A stretch of DNA of 39,341 bases, taken from NCBI GenBank assembly GCA_029267955.1, contig JAJUHI010000003.1:1-39341 (forward strand). Reading direction: 5' to 3'. The position numbers and the translations under genes were made by a program. The notes below the pieces were generated by a model. It did not search any database, was not told where the DNA came from, and saw nothing but the letters and a program-made list of their open reading frames with translations. Below, in pieces: positions 3,614 through 13,142 of this stretch. Source of the DNA: Sporobacter termitidis. GTDB lineage: Bacteria; Bacillota; Clostridia; Oscillospirales; Oscillospiraceae. Numbering within the stretch: the first letter of the stretch is position 1; each line of letters starts with the position of its first letter.

Positions 3614-4765
3614 TCACGACAGCCGGCTTTTAAAGTCCTCGTATCCGAAGGCTTTGACAAGCTGTACGGCGCCGTCCTGCCGCAGCAGGGCGATGGACGG
3701 CAGGTTGACGCCGTTGAAGGTGTTGTTTTTGACCATGGTGTAGATGGCCATATCGGTGAAGACCAGCTTGTCGCCGGGCGATAATGGCCGGTCAAAGCTG
3801 TAATCGCCGATGATATCGCCGGCCAGGCACGTGGGCCCGCCCAGGCGGTAATTGTATCTCTTTGTGCCCGGATAACCCGAGCCGAGAACGACGGGCCGGT
3901 ACGGCATCTCCAGCACATCCGGCATGTGGCAGGCGGCGGAAGCGTCCAGAATGGCGGTGCGGACGTCGTTTTCCACGATGTCCAGAACCGTGCTGACCAG
4001 ATAGCCGGCGTCCAGCGCCACCGCCTCGCCCGGCTCTAAGTAGACCTCGACGCCGTACGTGTCCCGGACGCGGATGATCTGGCGGACCAGCGTTTCTATG
4101 TCGTAATCCTGCCGGGTGATGTGGTGGCCGCCGCCGAAGTTGACCCAGGACATCCGGCGCAGAACCCTGCCGAAGCCTTTTTCAAAGGCCTCCAGGGTTT
4201 TAACCAGCGCGTCGGCGTTTTGTTGGCACAGGGTGTGAAAATGCAGGCCCGTCACGCCGTCCAGCCGGTCTTCATGAAAATGCGCCCGGGTCACGCCGAG
4301 CCGGGAGCCCTTCGCGCAGGGGTCGTACAGGGCGTGGCCCTGGGTGGAGCATTCGGGATTGACCCGGATGCCGATTTTTTTGCCCGCTTTCAGCGCGATA
4401 TCGCCGAACCGCTCCAGCTGGGCGAAGGAATTGAAGACGATATGGTCGCCGACCGCGGCGATCTCGTCAAACTCGTCCTCCCGGTAGGCCGCCGCGAACA
4501 CGTGGACCTCGCCGCCCATCTCCTCGCGGCCCAGCCGGGCCTCGTGCAGGCCGCTGGCGGCCGTCCCGCTGAGGTACCTGCCGATGAGCGGGTACAGGGC
4601 GTACATGGAGAACGCCTTTTGGGCCAAAAGGATCTTGCAGCCGGTCCTGTCCATCACGCTTTTTAAAATCTCCAGGTTTCGGATCAGGCGGCCCTCGTCG
4701 ACAATATAATACGGCGTTGGGATAGCGCCCAGGTCAAATCCGGCCTGAATCGAACCGGCCTGCAT
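3614..4765 (-). CDS. nspC: Carboxynorspermidine/carboxyspermidine decarboxylase
   Basis: Alanine racemase-fold PLP decarboxylase; VTGLHFHTLCQQ, WVNFGGGHHITRQDYD; adjacent to the CASDH-like gene with TGATG overlap. Confidence 0.9.
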   Translation of the reverse strand: MQAGSIQAGFDLGAIPTPYYIVDEGRLIRNLEILKSVMDRTGCKILLAQKAFSMYALYPLIGRYLSGTAASGLHEARLGREEMGGEVHVFAAAYREDEFDEIAAVGDHIVFNSFAQLERFGDIALKAGKKIGIRVNPECSTQGHALYDPCAKGSRLGVTRAHFHEDRLDGVTGLHFHTLCQQNADALVKTLEAFEKGFGRVLRRMSWVNFGGGHHITRQDYDIETLVRQIIRVRDTYGVEVYLEPGEAVALDAGYLVSTVLDIVENDVRTAILDASAACHMPDVLEMPYRPVVLGSGYPGTKRYNYRLGGPTCLAGDIIGDYSFDRPLSPGDKLVFTDMAIYTMVKNNTFNGVNLPSIALLRQDGAVQLVKAFGYEDFKSRLS

Positions 4766-5964
4766 CAGTCCACCAGCTCCGGATTAAAGCTCTCCCGCCA
4801 GGGCAGCCCCCACTTGTTGAGGGCGTCCATAAACGGGTCCGGATCAAACTCCTCCACATTGTAAACGCCGGGCTTCTGCCAGGTCCCGTTCATCACCAGC
4901 ATCGCGCCGATCATGGCGGGCACGCCCGTGGTGTACGAGATGGCCTGGGAGCCCACCTCCCGGTAGCTCTCCTGATGGTCGCAGACGTTATAAAGATAAT
5001 AGTGCTTGACCTTGCCGTCCTTTTTGCCGGTATAGATGCAGCCGATGTTCGTCTTGCCCTTCGTCCGGGGCCCCAGGGAGGCCGGGTCGGGCAGAACCGC
5101 CTTTAAGAACTGGAGCGGGACGATCTTTTTGCCCTCAAATTCAATGGGCTCAATGGACGTCATGCCCACGTTCTCCAGGCATTTGAGATGCGTCAAATAG
5201 CTCTGGCTGAAGGTCATGAAAAAGCGGATGCGGCGCACGCCGGGGATGTTTTTCGCCAGGGATTCCAGCTCCTCGTGGTGCAGCAGATACATGTCCTTGG
5301 GGCCGATTTCCGGGAAATTATAGACCCTCTTGATCTCCATGGGCTCGGTTTCGATCCAGCGGCCGTCCTCCCAGTAGCTGCCCTTGGCCGTCACCTCCCG
5401 GATGTTGATCTCCGGGTTGAAGTTGGTGGCGAAGGGGTACCCGTGGTCGCCGGCGTTGGCGTCCAGAATATCTATCTGCTCGATCACGTCAAAGTGGTGC
5501 TTGAGGGCGTAGGCGGTAAAGACGCCGGTGACGCCGGGGTCAAAGCCGCTGCCCAGAAGGGCCGTGATGCCCGCCTTTTCAAACCGGTCTTTATAAGCCC
5601 ACTGCCATTTGTACTCGAACTTGGCCGTATCCGGCGGCTCGTAATTGGCCGTGTCCACGTAATGGGTCTTTGTGGCGAGGCAGGCGTCCATAATCGTCAG
5701 GTCCTGGTAGGGCAGCGCCAGGTTCAGGACGACGTCGGGCCTAAATTTCTCGATGAGGGCGATCAGCTCGTCCACGTTGTCGGCGTTTACCTGGGCGGTC
5801 TGTATTTTCGTTTTGCCGCCGGAGAGCTTTTCCTTCAAGGCGTCGCATTTGCTTTTTGTCCGGCTGGCGATCATGATTTCCTCAAAGACATCGCTGTTTT
5901 GACAGCATTTGTGGATGGCTACGCTGGCAACGCCGCCGCAGCCGATGATCAGTGCTTTTCCCAT
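4765..5964 (-). CDS. Saccharopine dehydrogenase family protein; likely carboxy(nor)spermidine dehydrogenase
   Basis: MGKALIIGCGGVASVAIHKCCQ Rossmann start; LALPYQDLTIMDACLATKTHYVDTANYEPPD; partner of nspC. Confidence 0.88.
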   Translation of the reverse strand: MGKALIIGCGGVASVAIHKCCQNSDVFEEIMIASRTKSKCDALKEKLSGGKTKIQTAQVNADNVDELIALIEKFRPDVVLNLALPYQDLTIMDACLATKTHYVDTANYEPPDTAKFEYKWQWAYKDRFEKAGITALLGSGFDPGVTGVFTAYALKHHFDVIEQIDILDANAGDHGYPFATNFNPEINIREVTAKGSYWEDGRWIETEPMEIKRVYNFPEIGPKDMYLLHHEELESLAKNIPGVRRIRFFMTFSQSYLTHLKCLENVGMTSIEPIEFEGKKIVPLQFLKAVLPDPASLGPRTKGKTNIGCIYTGKKDGKVKHYYLYNVCDHQESYREVGSQAISYTTGVPAMIGAMLVMNGTWQKPGVYNVEEFDPDPFMDALNKWGLPWRESFNPELVD

Positions 5965-6041
5965 GGTTACTCCTCCGTTTCCCGCCGCCGACGCGGCGGT
6001 GTCATGAATTTTCCGGCTTGCCGGGGCATCGCTTTCGCGCT

Positions 6042-6896
6042 CTATATCATAAGCGAGAGCAGCAGCTCCCGCAGCAGCTTGCAGGCCGTTGCCGTGGACA
6101 CGCCGCTCTGGTCGTAAACCGGCGACAGCTCCACCAAATCGCAGCCGACCACCCTCAGCCCGCAGACCTCCCGGATGGCCGCGCGCAGCTGGTCAAAGCT
6201 CACGCCGCCGGGCTCCGGCGTCCCGGTGCCGGGGAAGACCGACGGGTCCAAAACGTCCAAATCCACCGTCAGGTACACGGGCTGATCCTTTAAGCGGCGG
6301 ACAACCGCGTCCAGGCCGCCGAAGTCGAACATCCGCAGGTGGGTATGGCCCTGTTTGGCAAAGTCGAACTCGCTGCGGTCCCCCGAACGGATGCCGAACT
6401 GGTAGATCCGCCCGTCGCCCACCAGCTCGTGGCAGCGGCGGAGGACGGCGGCGTGGGAATGGGCCGCGCCCAGATAGTCGTCCCGCAGGTCGGCGTGGGC
6501 GTCAAAGTGGATGATATGCGCCTCCGGGTATTTTTTAAAAACGGCCCGGAAAGCCCCCAGGGTCACCAAATGCTCGCCCCCCAGCATGACGGGGAGCTTG
6601 CCGTCGGCGACAATCCGCGACACGTAATCCTCTATCTGCTTTAGGGCCGGCGCGGGGTCCCCCAAGCTCAGCTCCAGGTCGCCGCCGTCGAAGACGGCGA
6701 TCTCGCTCAGGTCGCGGTTCAGGTACGGGCTGTAGGTTTCCAGCCCGAAGGACTGGGCGCGCATCTCCCGGCTTCCAAACCGCGCCCCCGGCCGGTAGGA
6801 GGTGGTGGAGTCGAAGGGCGCGCCGAAGATGACGATGTCGGCCTCCGAATACTCTTTGTCGCAGCCGAGAAAGGTCTCGATATTTCTACTCAACAT
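6042..6896 (-). CDS. speB: Agmatinase
   Basis: Ureohydrolase motifs GGEHLVTLG, HFDAHADLRDDYLG, SHAAVLRR, TVDLDVLDPSVFPGTGTPEPGG. Confidence 0.93.
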   Translation of the reverse strand: MLSRNIETFLGCDKEYSEADIVIFGAPFDSTTSYRPGARFGSREMRAQSFGLETYSPYLNRDLSEIAVFDGGDLELSLGDPAPALKQIEDYVSRIVADGKLPVMLGGEHLVTLGAFRAVFKKYPEAHIIHFDAHADLRDDYLGAAHSHAAVLRRCHELVGDGRIYQFGIRSGDRSEFDFAKQGHTHLRMFDFGGLDAVVRRLKDQPVYLTVDLDVLDPSVFPGTGTPEPGGVSFDQLRAAIREVCGLRVVGCDLVELSPVYDQSGVSTATACKLLRELLLSLMI

Positions 6897-7737
6897 CCTT
6901 TAAAAGCTCCCATACGTAGTTTGGCAGGGCAAAGGCGCCGGCGTGCAGCTTTGTGTTATAATATCTCGTTTTCAGGCCCAAAGCATTCCAGCGGCTCTCG
7001 TCCAGGTCGCCCACGGGGTGATACCGTTTGGAGGCGAAGCCGAAGAGCCAGTGGCCGCTGGGGTAGGTGGGGATGTGGGCCTGGTACACGCGGCTGATGG
7101 GAAAGCACTGGACAATCCGTTTATGGGCCCGCTGCATGGCGATGGCGTCGTTTTCATAAAAGGGGCTCTCGTGCTGGTTGATCATGATGCCGTGTTCCCG
7201 GAGCGCCTTGTAGCAGTTGCCGTAAAACTCCTTTGTAAAGAGCCCCTCGCCGGGGCCGAAGGGGTCCGTGGAGTCGACGATGATCAGGTCATACTGATCT
7301 TCGCAGCTCCTGATATATTTCAGCCCGTCCTGGATGAGGATGTTGACGCGCTTGTCGTCAAAGCCGCAGGCAGTCTGGGGCAAAAACTCCCGGCAGACCT
7401 TGATGACCATCTCGTCGATTTCCACCAGGTCGATTTTGCGGATGGCGTCGTACCGGGTCAGTTCCCTGGCCACGCCGCCGTCCCCCGCGCCGATGACCAG
7501 CACGTCCCGGACCAGGGGCGACACGGCCATGGCCGGATGGACGATCATTTCGTGGTAGATAAATTCGTCCTTCTCCGTGAGCATCATATAACCGTCCAGC
7601 GTCAAAAAGCGCCCGAACTCGGCGGACTCGAACACGTCGATGCGCTGGAAGGGGCTCTGCTCGGAGAACAGCTGTCTGTTCGTCCGGATGGAGAATTTAA
7701 CGTCCTTCGTATGCTTTTCAGAAAACCAGAGGTCCAT
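6886..7737 (-). CDS. speE: Polyamine aminopropyltransferase (spermidine synthase)
   Basis: MDLWFSEKHTKDVKFSI, DVLVIGAGDGGVARELTRY, IVDSTDPFGPGEGLFTKEFY. Confidence 0.94.
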   Translation of the reverse strand: MDLWFSEKHTKDVKFSIRTNRQLFSEQSPFQRIDVFESAEFGRFLTLDGYMMLTEKDEFIYHEMIVHPAMAVSPLVRDVLVIGAGDGGVARELTRYDAIRKIDLVEIDEMVIKVCREFLPQTACGFDDKRVNILIQDGLKYIRSCEDQYDLIIVDSTDPFGPGEGLFTKEFYGNCYKALREHGIMINQHESPFYENDAIAMQRAHKRIVQCFPISRVYQAHIPTYPSGHWLFGFASKRYHPVGDLDESRWNALGLKTRYYNTKLHAGAFALPNYVWELLKDVE

Positions 7738-9198
7738 TCACGCATCTCCTTTCAGCACGTTGAGCCGGTTGACCTCCAAATCCTCCGTGCCCGTCAGGAA
7801 ACAGCCCTTTTCCTTGGCATAGATGATATAGTCGATGATGTCGCCGGTGATCCGCTCTCCCGGCGCCAAAATCGGGATGCCGGGGGGATAGCTCATGACG
7901 TTCTCCGCGCAGATCTCGCCCCGGCAGTCAATAAGGGGCACGGATTTCTTCTCGGCGTAGAAGGCCTTTTGGGGCGTCGTGACAACGGCGGGGGAGATGT
8001 ATTCGTATTCCAGCATGCCCGCCCGGTCTTTTTTGTACAGGCGGCGGATGTCCGCCAGGGCGCTGACCAGGCGCTCGATGTTCTTGTCCGAGTCGCCGAT
8101 GGAAATATACGCGAGGAAGTTGCCGATATCCCCGAACTCCAGCTGGATATCGTATTCGTCCCGGAGAATATCGTATACCTCGATCCCCGCAAGGCCCACC
8201 TCCAGGGTGTGGACGGAGAGCTTGGTCATGTCAAAATCGAAAATCGTGTCGCCGTTGATAAGCTCCTTGGAATAGGCGTAATAGTCGCCGATTCTGTTGA
8301 TTTCATCCCGGGCGTACTGGGCCAGCTCCATGACCCGTTTAAAGATGTCGCGGCCCTTCAGCGCGAGGTTCTTGCGGGAGATGTCCAAGCTCGACAGCAG
8401 CAGGTACGAGCCGCTGGTGGTCTGGGTGAGGTTGATGACCTGCCGGACGTAGTGGGGGTTGACGTTTTCTCCCGTCAATAGCAACGAGCTCTGCGTCAGG
8501 GAGCCGCCGGACTTGTGCATGCTCACCGAGGCCATGTCCGCGCCCGCGGCCATGGCGGAAACCGGCAGATCGTCCCGGAAATAAAAGTGCGTGCCGTGGG
8601 CCTCGTCCACCAGCACCAGCATGCCGGCTTCGTGGGCCAGCTCTGTGATCCGGCGCAGGTCGGCGCAGATGCCGTAATAGGTGGGGTTGTTGACAAGAAT
8701 GGCCTTGGCGCCGGGATTGTCGCGGATTGCCTTTTTTATATCCTCTACGGACATGCCCAGGGCAATGCCCAGCCGGCGGTTGATGCCGGGATTGACGTAC
8801 ACGGGCTCGGCGCCGCAGAGGATCAGCGCGTTGATGACGCTGATGTGCACAGTCCGCGGGAGGATGAGCTTGTCGCCTTTTTTGCAGAAGGACATGACCA
8901 TGGCCTGAACGGCGGAGGTGGTGCCGCCCACCATGAAAAAGGCGTGGGCGGCGCCAAAGGCGTCCGCCGCCAGCGCCTCGGCGTCCTTGATGACCGAAAC
9001 GGGATGGCTTAAATTGTCCAGCGGCTTCATGGAATTGACGTCGATGCCCGTGCACTTTTCCCCCAGAAAGGCGGTAAGCTCCGGGTTGCCCAGGCCGCGC
9101 TTGTGGCCGGGCACGTCGAAGGGCACGATGCGCGCGCGCTTGACGGCGGTCAGGGCCTCCAAAATCGGCGTTTTGCTTTGATCGAGCGTATTTTTCAA
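7738..9198 (-). CDS. speA: Aminotransferase-fold Orn/Lys/Arg decarboxylase, likely arginine decarboxylase
   Basis: PFDVPGHKRG, SVSMHKSGGSLTQSSLLL (PLP lysine); likely TTG start at 9198 preceded by AAAGGAG, so the 9246 ATG in the ORF track is probably too far upstream. Confidence 0.88.
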   Translation of the reverse strand: MKNTLDQSKTPILEALTAVKRARIVPFDVPGHKRGLGNPELTAFLGEKCTGIDVNSMKPLDNLSHPVSVIKDAEALAADAFGAAHAFFMVGGTTSAVQAMVMSFCKKGDKLILPRTVHISVINALILCGAEPVYVNPGINRRLGIALGMSVEDIKKAIRDNPGAKAILVNNPTYYGICADLRRITELAHEAGMLVLVDEAHGTHFYFRDDLPVSAMAAGADMASVSMHKSGGSLTQSSLLLTGENVNPHYVRQVINLTQTTSGSYLLLSSLDISRKNLALKGRDIFKRVMELAQYARDEINRIGDYYAYSKELINGDTIFDFDMTKLSVHTLEVGLAGIEVYDILRDEYDIQLEFGDIGNFLAYISIGDSDKNIERLVSALADIRRLYKKDRAGMLEYEYISPAVVTTPQKAFYAEKKSVPLIDCRGEICAENVMSYPPGIPILAPGERITGDIIDYIIYAKEKGCFLTGTEDLEVNRLNVLKGDA

Positions 9199-9233
9199 CG
9201 GTTGCTCCTTTATACAGACTCCAAGGAGATGAC

Positions 9234-9289
9234 AATCAGTACACATTCATGGCGCTGAGGGGAATCAATACACGTTGATGGCGCTGAAG
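9234..9289. repeat. Imperfect tandem duplication (29-bp period) of the speD 3' end
   Basis: AATCAGTACACATTCATGGCGCTGAGG (9234-9260) vs AATCAATACACGTTGATGGCGCTGAAG (9263-9289): 23/27 identical; on minus it reads SAINVY* then SAMNVY*. Confidence 0.85.
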
Positions 9290-10029
9290 ATTTCAATCAT
9301 CTCTTTGCGGAGGAGGCTGCTTATTTGCAGGCGCGTCTTCGGCGGCAGCTCGTAGACGTCCGCGTTAAAGAGGTAATTCTGGAGATCCATTTCCTTGATG
9401 AGCATCTTTGTATGGAAAATGTTTGCCTGATACATGTTGATGTCGATGGTGTCGTACTTGGCCAGTATGGCGCTGTCGATGTAGTCCTGAATCGACGTGA
9501 TCGTATGGTCGATAAACAGCTTCTTGCCGTCGATATTGCGGGTAAAGCCCCGGACCCGGTAGTCCATGGTGATGATGTCCGAGTCGAAGCTGCCGATGAG
9601 ATAATCCAGGGTGGACAGGGGCGTGATGGCGCCGCAGGTGGTCACATCGATATCCACCCGGAAGGTGGCGATGGCGTTGTCGGGGTGGTATTCCGGATAG
9701 GTATGGACGGTGACGTGGCTCTTGTCCAGATGGGCCACCACCGTGTCGCCGCCCGCCTGGGCCAGCTGGGAGGGCTCGGCGATCAAAAAGGTCACGCTGG
9801 CCCCCTGGGGCTCATAATCCTGCTTGGAGATGTTGAGCACCGTGGCGCCGATCATCTCCGTCAGGTGGTACAGAATTTTTGTCAGGCGTTCGGAGTTGTA
9901 CTGCTCGCTGATATAGGCGATATAGTCCTTCTGAGCGCGCTCCGTCTTGGCGTAACAGACGTCGTAGATGTTGAAGCTTAGGGACTTTGTCAGATTGTTA
10001 AAGCCGTACAGGGTCAGTTTGTTTTCCAT
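9265..10029 (-). CDS. speD: S-adenosylmethionine decarboxylase proenzyme
   Basis: [44 protein letters not shown] (cleavage/active-site region); start supported by AAAGGAGCATCCGTT-ATG. Confidence 0.92.
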
Positions 10030-10199
10030 AACGGATGCTCCTTTGACTAGAAAAATAACGCCCAAGCGCTTATGGCGGAAGACCACAACACACTTGAGCG
10101 ATTATCATTGGAAATGTTTTATTTATATACGAATTTAAAAACTCGTTTTATTTATTCATTTCACCCGTATCAGAGTCTATATAGCAAGAATTACTTTTA

Positions 10200-10450
10200 C
10201 TACTCTTATTGATTTTTCACAAGTGTGTATGGCTTCTCGCAGAACACAAGCTCCGGCAAAGCCAAGGTTTTGGGTACCCCAACTTATAAAATTCAGCGGC
10301 GTGTGTGACACGCAACGCAGTGCACGGGGAGCGGCAATGCTGCCGTGCGCAATCAATAAGGCAACGAAAGTTGCCATTTCGGCATTTGACCCGGCTGTCC
10401 GTCCGGCCTTTGATGAAAATATAAAAGCTTTTGCTTTATATTTTCACGGT
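10200..10450 (-). other. Structured non-coding region, candidate leader RNA or dispersed repeat
   Basis: Several local hairpins: GGCAAC-GAAA-GTTGCC (10360-10375), GCACGG..CCGTGC (10322-10347), GCGTGT-GTG-ACACGC (10299-10313), 14-bp stem with one A bulge TGAAAATATAAA(A)GC/GCTTTATATTTTCA (10414-10446). Confidence 0.55.
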
Positions 10451-10489
10451 CAAAAATTCTGTGCTATGATCGTTTAATTAACAGAACGC

Positions 10490-10518
10490 ATACTAACATA
10501 TTACCGCGGCGATGTCAA
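10490..10518 (-). promoter_or_regulatory. Strong putative sigma-A promoter reading toward speD
   Basis: Minus strand TTGACA - 17 nt - TAGTAT. Confidence 0.7.
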
Positions 10519-10590: not shown

Positions 10591-11334
10591 TCAGCCGTTG
10601 AGGAAACGGGACAAAAAGTCCTTTGTCTCCTGGCGGGAGGGGTTGATGAAAATCTGCTCGGGCGTCCCTTCCTCGCAGATGACGCCGTCGTTCATGAAGA
10701 CCACGTGGCTGGACACATCTCTGGCAAAAGCCATTTCGTGGGTGACGATGATCATGGTCAGGCCCTCTTTTGCAAGGGTCCGCATGACGGATAACACCTC
10801 GCCCACCATCTGGGGGTCCAGCGCCGAGGTGGGCTCGTCAAACAGCAGGATCTCCGGCTCCATGGCCAGCGCCCGGGCGATGGCCACCCGCTGTTTCTGG
10901 CCGCCGGAGAGCTGCCGGGGCTTGGCGTTGATATAGGGCGACATGCCCACCTTTTCCAGATAGTTAAGGGCTGTCTGCCGGGCGGTGTTCTTGTCCTGCT
11001 TTAGAACCTTTGTCGTGCCGATCATGCAGTTTTTCAGCGCCGTCATGTTGGAAAACAGGTTAAAGCTCTGGAACACCATGCCGACCTTTGCCCGGTAGGC
11101 CGGGACATCAAACCGGCCGGCGGTGATGTCTTTCCCGTGGAAAAGGATTTCGCCGCCGGTGGGCGTTTCAAGCAGGTTGATGCACCGCAGCAGCGTCGAC
11201 TTACCGGAGCCGGACGCGCCGATGATGCAGATAACGTCGCCCTTATTGACGGAAAAGTTGATATCCTTCAAGACAACGTTTTTGCCGAAGGTTTTGCTGA
11301 GATGGCGGATCTCAAGGAGCTTCTCAGTACTCAC
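10591..11334 (-). CDS. Polar amino acid ABC transporter ATP-binding protein
   Basis: [55 protein letters not shown] start at 11334 with GGAGGG upstream. Confidence 0.92.
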
Positions 11335-12130
11335 CTCTCGTCCCTCCGTTTCTGCCGAGGAATTTATACATGCCGCTGGTGTGGGCCAGCGTATCGGTGG
11401 TGGCCAGGTCGTAGTTTTTGGGGCCGTCCATCCGCCGTTCAAACCAGCGCAGCAGCTGGGAGAAGAACACGGTCATAATCAGGTACATGGCCATGGTGAC
11501 GGTATACGTCTCAAAGTAGATGTAATAGGTGCCGGAGACGGATTTGGACGTGAAGAACAGCTCCACCACGCTGATGACCGAGAGGACGCAGGTGTCCTTG
11601 ATGTTGATGATCAGGTTGTTGCCGATCTGGGGCATGATGTTCCGCAGCGCCTGGGGCAGGATAACGTACAGCATCGTTTGAAAGTGCGTCATACCGATGG
11701 CCTTGGCGCCCTCCGTCTGCCCCTCGTCAATGGACAGGATGCCGCCGCGCACTGTTTCGGCCATGTAGGCGCCGGTGTTGATGGAGACGATGAAAAAGGC
11801 GGCAAACCACATGGTCATGTCAATGCCGAACAGTATCGCCGAGCCGTAATAAATGAACATGGCCTGCGCCATCATCGGCGTCCCGCGGAAGACCTCCACA
11901 TAGACGTTGAGGATCAGCCGGACAAGCCACAGGACGCTTTTCTTGACGGCGCTGTCGTTTTTGGAGACGGGTATCGTCTGGATGACGCCCACGATAAACC
12001 CGATGATGCATCCAAAGAACGTACCCACCACGGCGATGATCAGGGTCGTCCCCGCCCCGCGCAGGAGGGACCCGCCGTAGTTTTGCAGTATAAAGAGGAT
12101 CCGGCCTAAAAAATCGGACGGCAGAGACAT
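11324..12130 (-). CDS. Polar amino acid ABC transporter permease (HisM/GlnP-like)
   Basis: [62 protein letters not shown] (EAA loop). Confidence 0.92.
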
Positions 12131-12154
12131 ACGGTCACCCTTTCAAGAAGTTAT

Positions 12155-12178
12155 GGGGGAGCAGCATGCCGCTCCCCC
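12155..12178 (-). promoter_or_regulatory. Intercistronic hairpin between binding-protein and permease genes
   Basis: GGGGGAGC/GCTCCCCC perfect 8-bp stem without a T tract on minus; position fits partial termination or mRNA stabilisation. Confidence 0.55.
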
Positions 12179-12195
12179 AACAGTTTTCGCTATCG

Positions 12196-13086
12196 TTATT
12201 CGGACAGGGGCTGGACCTTGATGGCTTCGTTCATCATGCGCACAAAGTCATCCGGGGTCAGTGTGGCGAGGGCTTCGTTGAGCAGGTCCTTAAGCTCGGT
12301 GTTGCCCTTTCTCAGCGAGATGCCGATGTTGATTTCCTCTTCGGACACCTCAAAGTTGTCCTCGGAACCCGTAAAGTTGAGAAGCTTCATATTGGGATAA
12401 ACCATCAGGGCGGCCAGCGCCGTGGGCTCGTCGGTGACGACAATGTTGCACTTGCCGGAATCCAAGGCCACCAGCATGGCGGCGGTGGTCTCCATGGCGG
12501 GCAGAATCTTGGCGTCCTTGATCTGCGGCAGGCACTCGTCGTACCAGACCGTGTTGATCTGGGAGGTGCAGGTGGCGCCCGCCAGGTCCGAAAGGCCTTT
12601 CGCGTTGGCATACGGCGAGTCCGCGGTGGTCAGCGCCACGATGGAGGCGTAATAATACGGGGTTGTGAAGTCCATGGTCTCAAGGCGCTCGGCGGTGATG
12701 GACTGGCCGCAGATGCCCACGTCAACCTTGCCGGACTGAACGGCCAGGGGGATGCTGTCCCAGTCCATCTTGTGGATTTCCAGCTTGTAGCCGATTTTTT
12801 CGGCCAGGTACTTGGCCATCATGACGTCATAGCCGTAGGCGTAGTCGGTGCTCTGGTAAATCGGCACGGCGCCGTTGGCGTCCGTCGACTGCGTCCAGTT
12901 GTAGGGCGCGTAGGCGCACTCCATGGCCACGCGGAGGACCTTTTCTTCACTGGGCTGCGCGTCGGCGGGCTCAGACGCGGCGGGGGAGGCCGTGTCGGCA
13001 GCCGGCGGCGTTTCAGCTTTCGGCGCGCAGGCAGCGATCCCGAAAACAAGAACCAGCGCCAGGAGCAGGGAAAGCAGTTTTTTCAT
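12196..13086 (-). CDS. Polar amino acid ABC transporter substrate-binding lipoprotein
   Basis: MKKLLSLLLALVLVFGIAACAPKAE lipobox; VDVGICGQSITAERLETMDFTTPYY (SBP family 3). Confidence 0.92.
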   Translation of the reverse strand: MKKLLSLLLALVLVFGIAACAPKAETPPAADTASPAASEPADAQPSEEKVLRVAMECAYAPYNWTQSTDANGAVPIYQSTDYAYGYDVMMAKYLAEKIGYKLEIHKMDWDSIPLAVQSGKVDVGICGQSITAERLETMDFTTPYYYASIVALTTADSPYANAKGLSDLAGATCTSQINTVWYDECLPQIKDAKILPAMETTAAMLVALDSGKCNIVVTDEPTALAALMVYPNMKLLNFTGSEDNFEVSEEEINIGISLRKGNTELKDLLNEALATLTPDDFVRMMNEAIKVQPLSE

Positions 13087-13142
13087 TACGATTACCATCC
13101 TTCGTAGAAACTTTTTTACTTTAACAGACGATAGTTGCATTC

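Follow-up and report, generated by a model that had tools for sequence, protein, structure and literature searches.

The leader of the polyamine operon in the window (the whole stretch of DNA analyzed here, 39,341 nucleotides from Sporobacter termitidis; assembly GCA_029267955.1, contig JAJUHI010000003.1) spans positions 10030 to 10518 on the minus strand and is probably a polyamine-sensing OFF riboswitch that terminates transcription, a full-length member of Rfam family RF02440 serving as a cis attenuator of the operon. Computation establishes the family membership, the large domain with its helices, the intrinsic terminator, the complementarity of the antiterminator, and the gene association. 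We consider it very likely that the leader is a cis-acting attenuator of the RF02440 class and likely that it works in the OFF direction, whereas a polyamine as the direct ligand is a somewhat favored assignment. The original prediction had proposed either a structured leader RNA or a dispersed repeat, and only the former stood; the structural conservation by which it was to be judged was found upstream of speD and also before other polyamine genes in many Bacillota. The element belongs to an already catalogued orphan family. Relative to the Rfam entry, the analysis adds the full extent of the RNA, its long-range closing helix, the 3' domain, the covarying antiterminator, the associations with potA and CASDH, and the reinterpretation of a pneumococcal sRNA, although part of this is possibly contained in the original ldcC description.

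The promoter, the ribosome-binding site, and the genes of the operon are as follows.

10490 to 10518, minus strand: extended promoter, with -35 TTGACA at 10513 to 10518, a 17-nucleotide spacer, and a TG-extended -10 TAGTAT at 10490 to 10495
10038 to 10044, minus strand: Shine-Dalgarno sequence AAAGGAG of speD, from the sequence
9265 to 10029, minus strand: speD, S-adenosylmethionine decarboxylase, first gene of the operon (TIGR03331, 395 bits)
7738 to 9201, minus strand: Orn/Lys/Arg decarboxylase (PF01276)
6886 to 7737, minus strand: speE, spermidine synthase
6042 to 6896, minus strand: speB, agmatinase (TIGR01230)
4765 to 5964, minus strand: carboxy(nor)spermidine dehydrogenase-like protein (PF03435/PF16653; below the curated cut-off of NF043000)
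3614 to 4765, minus strand: nspC, carboxynorspermidine decarboxylase (TIGR01047)

The operon (3614 to 10029) combines the SpeD/SpeE route with the carboxyspermidine dehydrogenase/decarboxylase route to spermidine-type polyamines. Directly upstream of the leader, and on the same strand, lie the genes of a polar amino acid ABC transporter (ATPase, permease, and binding protein; 10591 to 13140), which is lysine/arginine/ornithine-like by TIGR01096, below the cut-off, and may supply the decarboxylase substrate.

The consensus promoter predicted ~455 nucleotides before speD (TTGACA-17-TAGTAT, minus strand) is present with a score of 10/12, and from its position transcription is expected to start near 10483. 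It is kept in the nearest relatives, L031 and L047, and promoters scoring at least 10/12 were found within 110 nucleotides 5' of the element in 93 of 117 relatives but in none of 117 control stretches. The fold of positions 10030 to 10480 has an energy of -145.5 kcal/mol (z = -6.2), and none of 100 shuffled sequences was equally stable. All of the hairpins originally named exist in the leader, but the GAAA tetraloop sits on the plus strand, which is not transcribed; the loop of the transcribed RNA at this site is UUUC, in the hairpin GGCAAC-UUUC-GUUGCC (P3). The AU stem with one bulge corresponds to P2a (10412 to 10447), and GCACGG..CCGTGC (10322 to 10348) and GCGTGT..ACACGC (10299 to 10313) occupy the position of P5.

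The Rfam scan identified the leader as RF02440 (SpF59_sRNA, or ldcC RNA), the sole match across the whole window (10379 to 10452, minus strand), with a covariance-model score of 50 bits against the gathering score of 37.2 bits that delimits the family. In the window's own family, RF02440 is present in 33 of 151 genomes, once in each. A single copy of the leader itself is present in the 2.64-Mb assembly (469 contigs, 87% complete; E values up to 0.001), and there is one copy per genome in every relative carrying the element. The inverted repeats and variable hairpins would suit a MITE or other dispersed repeat within the leader, but this explanation retains practically no probability in view of the single copies, the conserved core, and the constant position before polyamine genes.

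The leader was also said to contain no convincing gene, and its ORFs are indeed open but noncoding. Ribosome stalling at upstream ORFs is known for other polyamine operons, and a 66-codon ORF (10177 to 10377) is open here. However, the length of the equivalent stretch in 127 relatives falls evenly into the three classes modulo 3 (48/40/39), and in the relatives the LLI frame is interrupted by a stop after a median of 10 codons, so that control by stalling on a translated upstream ORF is highly improbable; a hidden gene was rejected on the same ground, the frame being unconserved. The peptide ATFVALLI is the translation of P3 and the P4 5' strand, and it recurs in relatives (e.g., as ATFVALLIELKAQFYKL in L015) because the ORF translates a conserved RNA, which would explain a recurrence of such products among hypothetical proteins.

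In Rfam, the family is represented by a 54-position model of the type "Gene; sRNA," in which the GGC..GCC segment is not base-paired. The conserved unit, defined here from ~165 oriented loci that include some duplicates, is ~250 nucleotides long in most genomes and ~300 nucleotides in the window (about 10168 to 10471). The comparison set consisted of oriented leaders of relatives and 118 stretches from named genomes; carriers among the latter include Paenibacillus, Bacillus, Neobacillus, Kurthia, Blautia, Faecalibacterium, Gemmiger, Acidaminococcus, Phascolarctobacterium, Erysipelotrichaceae, one Spirochaetes MAG, and one Synergistaceae MAG. Near-invariant sequence runs far beyond the Rfam positions, through the P3 hairpin, UUAUUGAUUGAGUUAAAAGCUCAAAUUUUAUAAGUUGGUUACUUUAUAACC, a variable hairpin, and ACUUGUGAAACGGUCAAUAAGAGUAGUAAAAGU...UUGCUAUAUAGACUCUG. 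A long-range helix, P1, closes the unit, whose 3' domain is missing from Rfam. The working helices were designated P1 (closing), P2, P2a, P2b (GGC..GCC), P3, P4, P5, P7, P8, and P9, and in the window they are located as follows.

10455 to 10471, minus strand: P1 5' strand, AGCACAGAATT (10455 to 10465) and outer GATCA (10467 to 10471), from the test of own versus permuted pairs
10379 to 10452, minus strand: RF02440 core, with P2 (UGACC/GGUCA), the AU-rich hairpin P2a (10412 to 10447), GGC-loop-GCC with ACGGACA (10393 to 10408), and UGCCGA (10379 to 10384)
10360 to 10375, minus strand: P3 hairpin, GGCAAC-UUUC-GUUGCC, from covariation
10353 to 10359, minus strand: P4 5' strand, UUAUUGA
10299 to 10348, minus strand: P5 position, filled in the window by a larger insert that is GC-rich and carries hairpins at 10322 to 10348 and 10299 to 10313
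10281 to 10291, minus strand: P7 5' strand, UUUUAUAAGUU
10235 to 10280, minus strand: P8 region (10266 to 10280) and the greater part of the P9 region, enlarged in the window
10214 to 10224, minus strand: P7 3' strand, ACUUGUGAAAA, the predicted switching strand
10206 to 10212, minus strand: P4 3' strand, UCAAUAA
10168 to 10207, minus strand: 3' closing segment, with GAGUAGUAAAAGUA (10192 to 10207), the P1 3' strand AAUUCUUGCU (10183 to 10192), and CUAUAUAGACUCUGAUA (10168 to 10184)

A longer core model of 165 positions (R1) matched the window at 10202 to 10452 with 87 bits (E = 1.6e-28), the window being one of the sequences used to build it. A second model (R2), restricted to sequence not covered by Rfam's 54 nucleotides, served as an independent check of the 3' domain. 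R2 and RF02440 each matched 19 of 399 genomes of the phylum, 17 of which were common to both, and in these the R2 match was always directly downstream; the R2 score of the window (40 bits) was the lowest of the matched genomes. The two genomes matched by R2 only (G420 and G173) have a diverged 5' part. Those matched by RF02440 only are G386, with a weak match in apparent coding DNA (L170), and G517, with an element that lacks P7 to P9 (L169). The L170 match, as well as an RF02440-like match in the GC-rich DNA of a Thermomonosporaceae MAG (L036), was judged to be due to chance because the 3' domain is absent. L169, unlike L163 to L165 of the same family, has no P7 to P9 and yet retains P1, P2, P4, and the terminator region. 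In L157 and L161, P1 and the 3' domain are intact and the RF02440 core is strongly diverged; these are perhaps variant aptamers with altered ligand specificity. The search of the 3' domain revealed no second Rfam family and no T-box.

In an alignment made from sequence only, 90.3% of the cells were paired and 23 of 51 pairs had changed on both sides. The double-change cells numbered 212, versus 62 expected, a value reached in none of 500 shuffles, and sliding the partners by one base reduced pairing to 42 to 49%. Most of the covariation comes from P2a, P3, and P5, the last of which most relatives carry as the short hairpin GAGUUAAAAGCUC. P4 and P7, being nearly invariant, hardly covary, and their pairing (UUUUAUAAGUU/AACUUGUGAAA in P7) rests on complementarity and G-U exchanges. 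Within the alignment P2b is invariant, but genus g324, which is Streptococcus-like, has GCC/GGC and L166 has AGC/GCU. P9 scored poorly on the sequence-only alignments (33.9 to 57% of cells paired) because its length varies. Since MAFFT misaligned P1, this helix was assessed by duplex energies with permuted partners: over 126 loci, the strands of the same locus gave -18.1 kcal/mol, versus -13.9 kcal/mol for permuted pairs and -14.9 kcal/mol for the best of 5,000 permutations, with the relatedness among the loci left in these figures. In P1 of the window, AGCACAGAAUU faces AAUUCUUGCU and the outer part is weaker; the window copy is atypical in its enlarged P5 and P8/P9 positions. The pentamers AGAGU (about 10202 to 10206) and ACUCU (about 10172 to 10176) are complementary, almost invariant, and placed across P1; a pseudoknot is one possibility, competition with the 5' GAGUC strand that occurs in relatives another.

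The first matching gene 3' of the element in the 165 oriented loci (some of them duplicates) encodes SpeD in 56, a decarboxylase in 41, PotA in 38, and CASDH in 20, i.e., a polyamine gene comes first in 155, the association expected of RF02440. As in riboswitches, the genes that follow are metabolically related and have a conserved structured domain in their 5' leaders. The other 10 loci comprise six cut by the end of the stored DNA, the chance match L036, and three that precede a lipoprotein gene (L020, L073, and L107). The one lipoprotein checked, that of L107, matches peptidase M28, and in these loci the element may control a new function, the scavenging of peptides as a source of arginine or lysine.

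In the conserved domain and between it and speD, the following elements of a putative switch were recognized.

10217 to 10234, minus strand: predicted antiterminator 5' half, AGCCAUACACACUUGUGA, forming a duplex with 10082 to 10099
10082 to 10099, minus strand: predicted antiterminator 3' half, GCUCAAGUGUGUUGUGGU, the same bases as the terminator left arm
10050 to 10100, minus strand: intrinsic terminator, a 42-nucleotide hairpin (10059 to 10100; -23.3 kcal/mol) and a U tract (10050 to 10058)

Intrinsic terminators were identified in 129 of 133 distinct leaders, 44 to 208 nucleotides past the conserved domain, and 119 of the 129 had -15 kcal/mol or better, compared with 1.3% of dinucleotide shuffles. 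When the complementarity of the terminator left arm was followed across the aptamer in 16-nucleotide windows, the minimum (-12.7) was at the P9/P7 3' strand, and values elsewhere were about -3 to -9. The antiterminator strands also fit their own partners (-13.8) better than random pairings of loci (-11.4; best of 5,000 permutations, -12.3), again with relatedness among the loci retained, and thus change together. In the window, the antiterminator has about -19.5 to -19.9 kcal/mol, the terminator -23.3 kcal/mol, and the local P7 about -8.4 kcal/mol; genus g324 has a weak antiterminator, with duplex energies of -5 to -7.5 kcal/mol. As far as the sequence goes, the expression platform and the aptamer are mutually exclusive, as in a riboswitch, and the layout fits a switch in which stabilization of P7 would free the terminator. 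A hairpin with AAUAAAUAAA on either flank is located between the aptamer and the terminator (10115 to 10158) and, being also present in L031, L162, and L163, is common to distant families.

In the proposed mechanism, RNA polymerase would start near 10483 and synthesize the aptamer from P1 to P9 (about 10168 to 10471). A ligand, most likely spermidine or a related polyamine, would hold the aptamer together, so that the P7 3' strand (10214 to 10224) stays on the P7 5' strand (10281 to 10291), the terminator (10050 to 10100) folds, and transcription ends before speD. Without ligand, the P9/P7 3' strand (10217 to 10234) would pair with the terminator left arm (10082 to 10099), blocking the terminator and allowing the operon to be transcribed. 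The element of G517, which lacks P7 to P9 and keeps the rest, is unexplained by this simple P7-switch model. From the model, it can be predicted which mutations would keep the operon permanently on or off. With the 54-nucleotide Rfam fragment, a ligand assay could fail because P1 and the whole 3' domain are absent from it.

The complementarity of terminator and antiterminator is silent on what tips the balance, and the same attenuator might be worked by a factor in trans (an RNA-binding or antiterminator protein) or by another metabolite of the pathway (arginine, agmatine, dcSAM, or methylthioadenosine); several metabolites are common to the regulated genes. However, the first genes cover uptake (potA, 38 loci) as well as both spermidine routes (speD and CASDH), which points to their common product as the signal, and the core is large and highly conserved, as is typical of metabolite-binding RNAs. 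We regard control by a trans factor or another metabolite as unlikely, though deserving some weight. Returning to the polyamine-sensing riboswitch, a response of the leader to polyamines is plausible, and we infer that it binds a small molecule directly; spermidine is the first candidate because both of its synthesis routes and its uptake are controlled.

RF02440/F59 is filed by Rfam and in the pneumococcal papers as a small RNA, so that it might act in trans and merely lie 5' of a decarboxylase gene. A discrete RNA is detected in pneumococcus, among sRNAs with in vivo phenotypes, but an attenuated leader also leaves a discrete RNA behind. Moreover, the element is found directly 5' of polyamine genes in the same orientation, in several classes and before several different first genes, and the complement to the terminator left arm is conserved; this anatomy favors a cis leader and makes a purely trans-acting RNA very unlikely, although the terminated product could have a second role in trans.

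As a cis-acting leader, the element can be compared with pneumococcal data. F59 is located between SP0915 and SP0916 (PMC3395615), SP_0916 encodes arginine decarboxylase (PMC7531197), and the sRNA M7 (srn235/F59/Spd_sr49) maps to TIGR4 positions 869478 to 869804 and is syntenic in 385 strains (PMC12323649). Like the leader described here, F59/srn235/Spd_sr49 is thus 5' of a decarboxylase gene of polyamine synthesis, SP_0916, and its 327 nucleotides compare with 320 to 339 nucleotides from leader to U tract in the Streptococcus-like g324 loci; the likeness to RF02440 is one of name (by which F59 is the type member), gene position, and mapped length. Unlike the pneumococcal papers, which treat F59/M7 as an sRNA, we read this unexplained RNA as the possible terminated leader of the arginine decarboxylase operon. 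Deletion of potABCD, by which putrescine and spermidine are lowered, raised SP_0916 16.9-fold and SP_0918 (speE) 14.4-fold in qRT-PCR, whereas RNA-seq in the same study did not call the rise (PMC8540371), and other regulators could be its cause. A polyamine-transport inhibitor modestly raises the synthesis genes (PMC10887117). The pneumococcal data fit a leader that represses when polyamines are abundant, without proving a riboswitch.

The existence of natural polyamine riboswitches, though claimed, has long met with doubt, since any RNA is bound by polyamines. The leader provides a common candidate polyamine riboswitch with precise boundaries and a predicted switching strand. The ldcC/SpF59 RNA may be a second class of polyamine riboswitch, unrelated in structure to the first and far more widespread, with an aptamer of ~250 nucleotides and a terminator/antiterminator, that controls polyamine synthesis and uptake in Bacillota, has members among MAGs of Spirochaetes and Synergistaceae, and has so far been catalogued only as a 54-nucleotide sRNA fragment; the chances that it is and that it is not seem to us evenly balanced. 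RF02440 shares the 5' core (10379 to 10452), and the gene associations agree with the name ldcC, whereas the entry lacks P1, P3 to P9, and the terminator/antiterminator that the conserved unit has. The accepted spermidine riboswitch, a rare class described from 13 representatives, is a variant of SAM-I that responds to spermidine and turns transcription off via a terminator/antiterminator (PMC10853860). It is also located 5' of ldcC/speB/speE-type genes and shares the proposed mode of action, but the leader described here differs in core sequence and fold and is a different RNA; it gave no match to the SAM-I family (RF00162) even at E values up to 10, nor to the other polyamine-related Rfam families. 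The speF and odc1 motifs of alphaproteobacteria and the potE motif of Veillonella (PMC11477304, PMC8632094) are likewise leader RNA motifs of polyamine genes.
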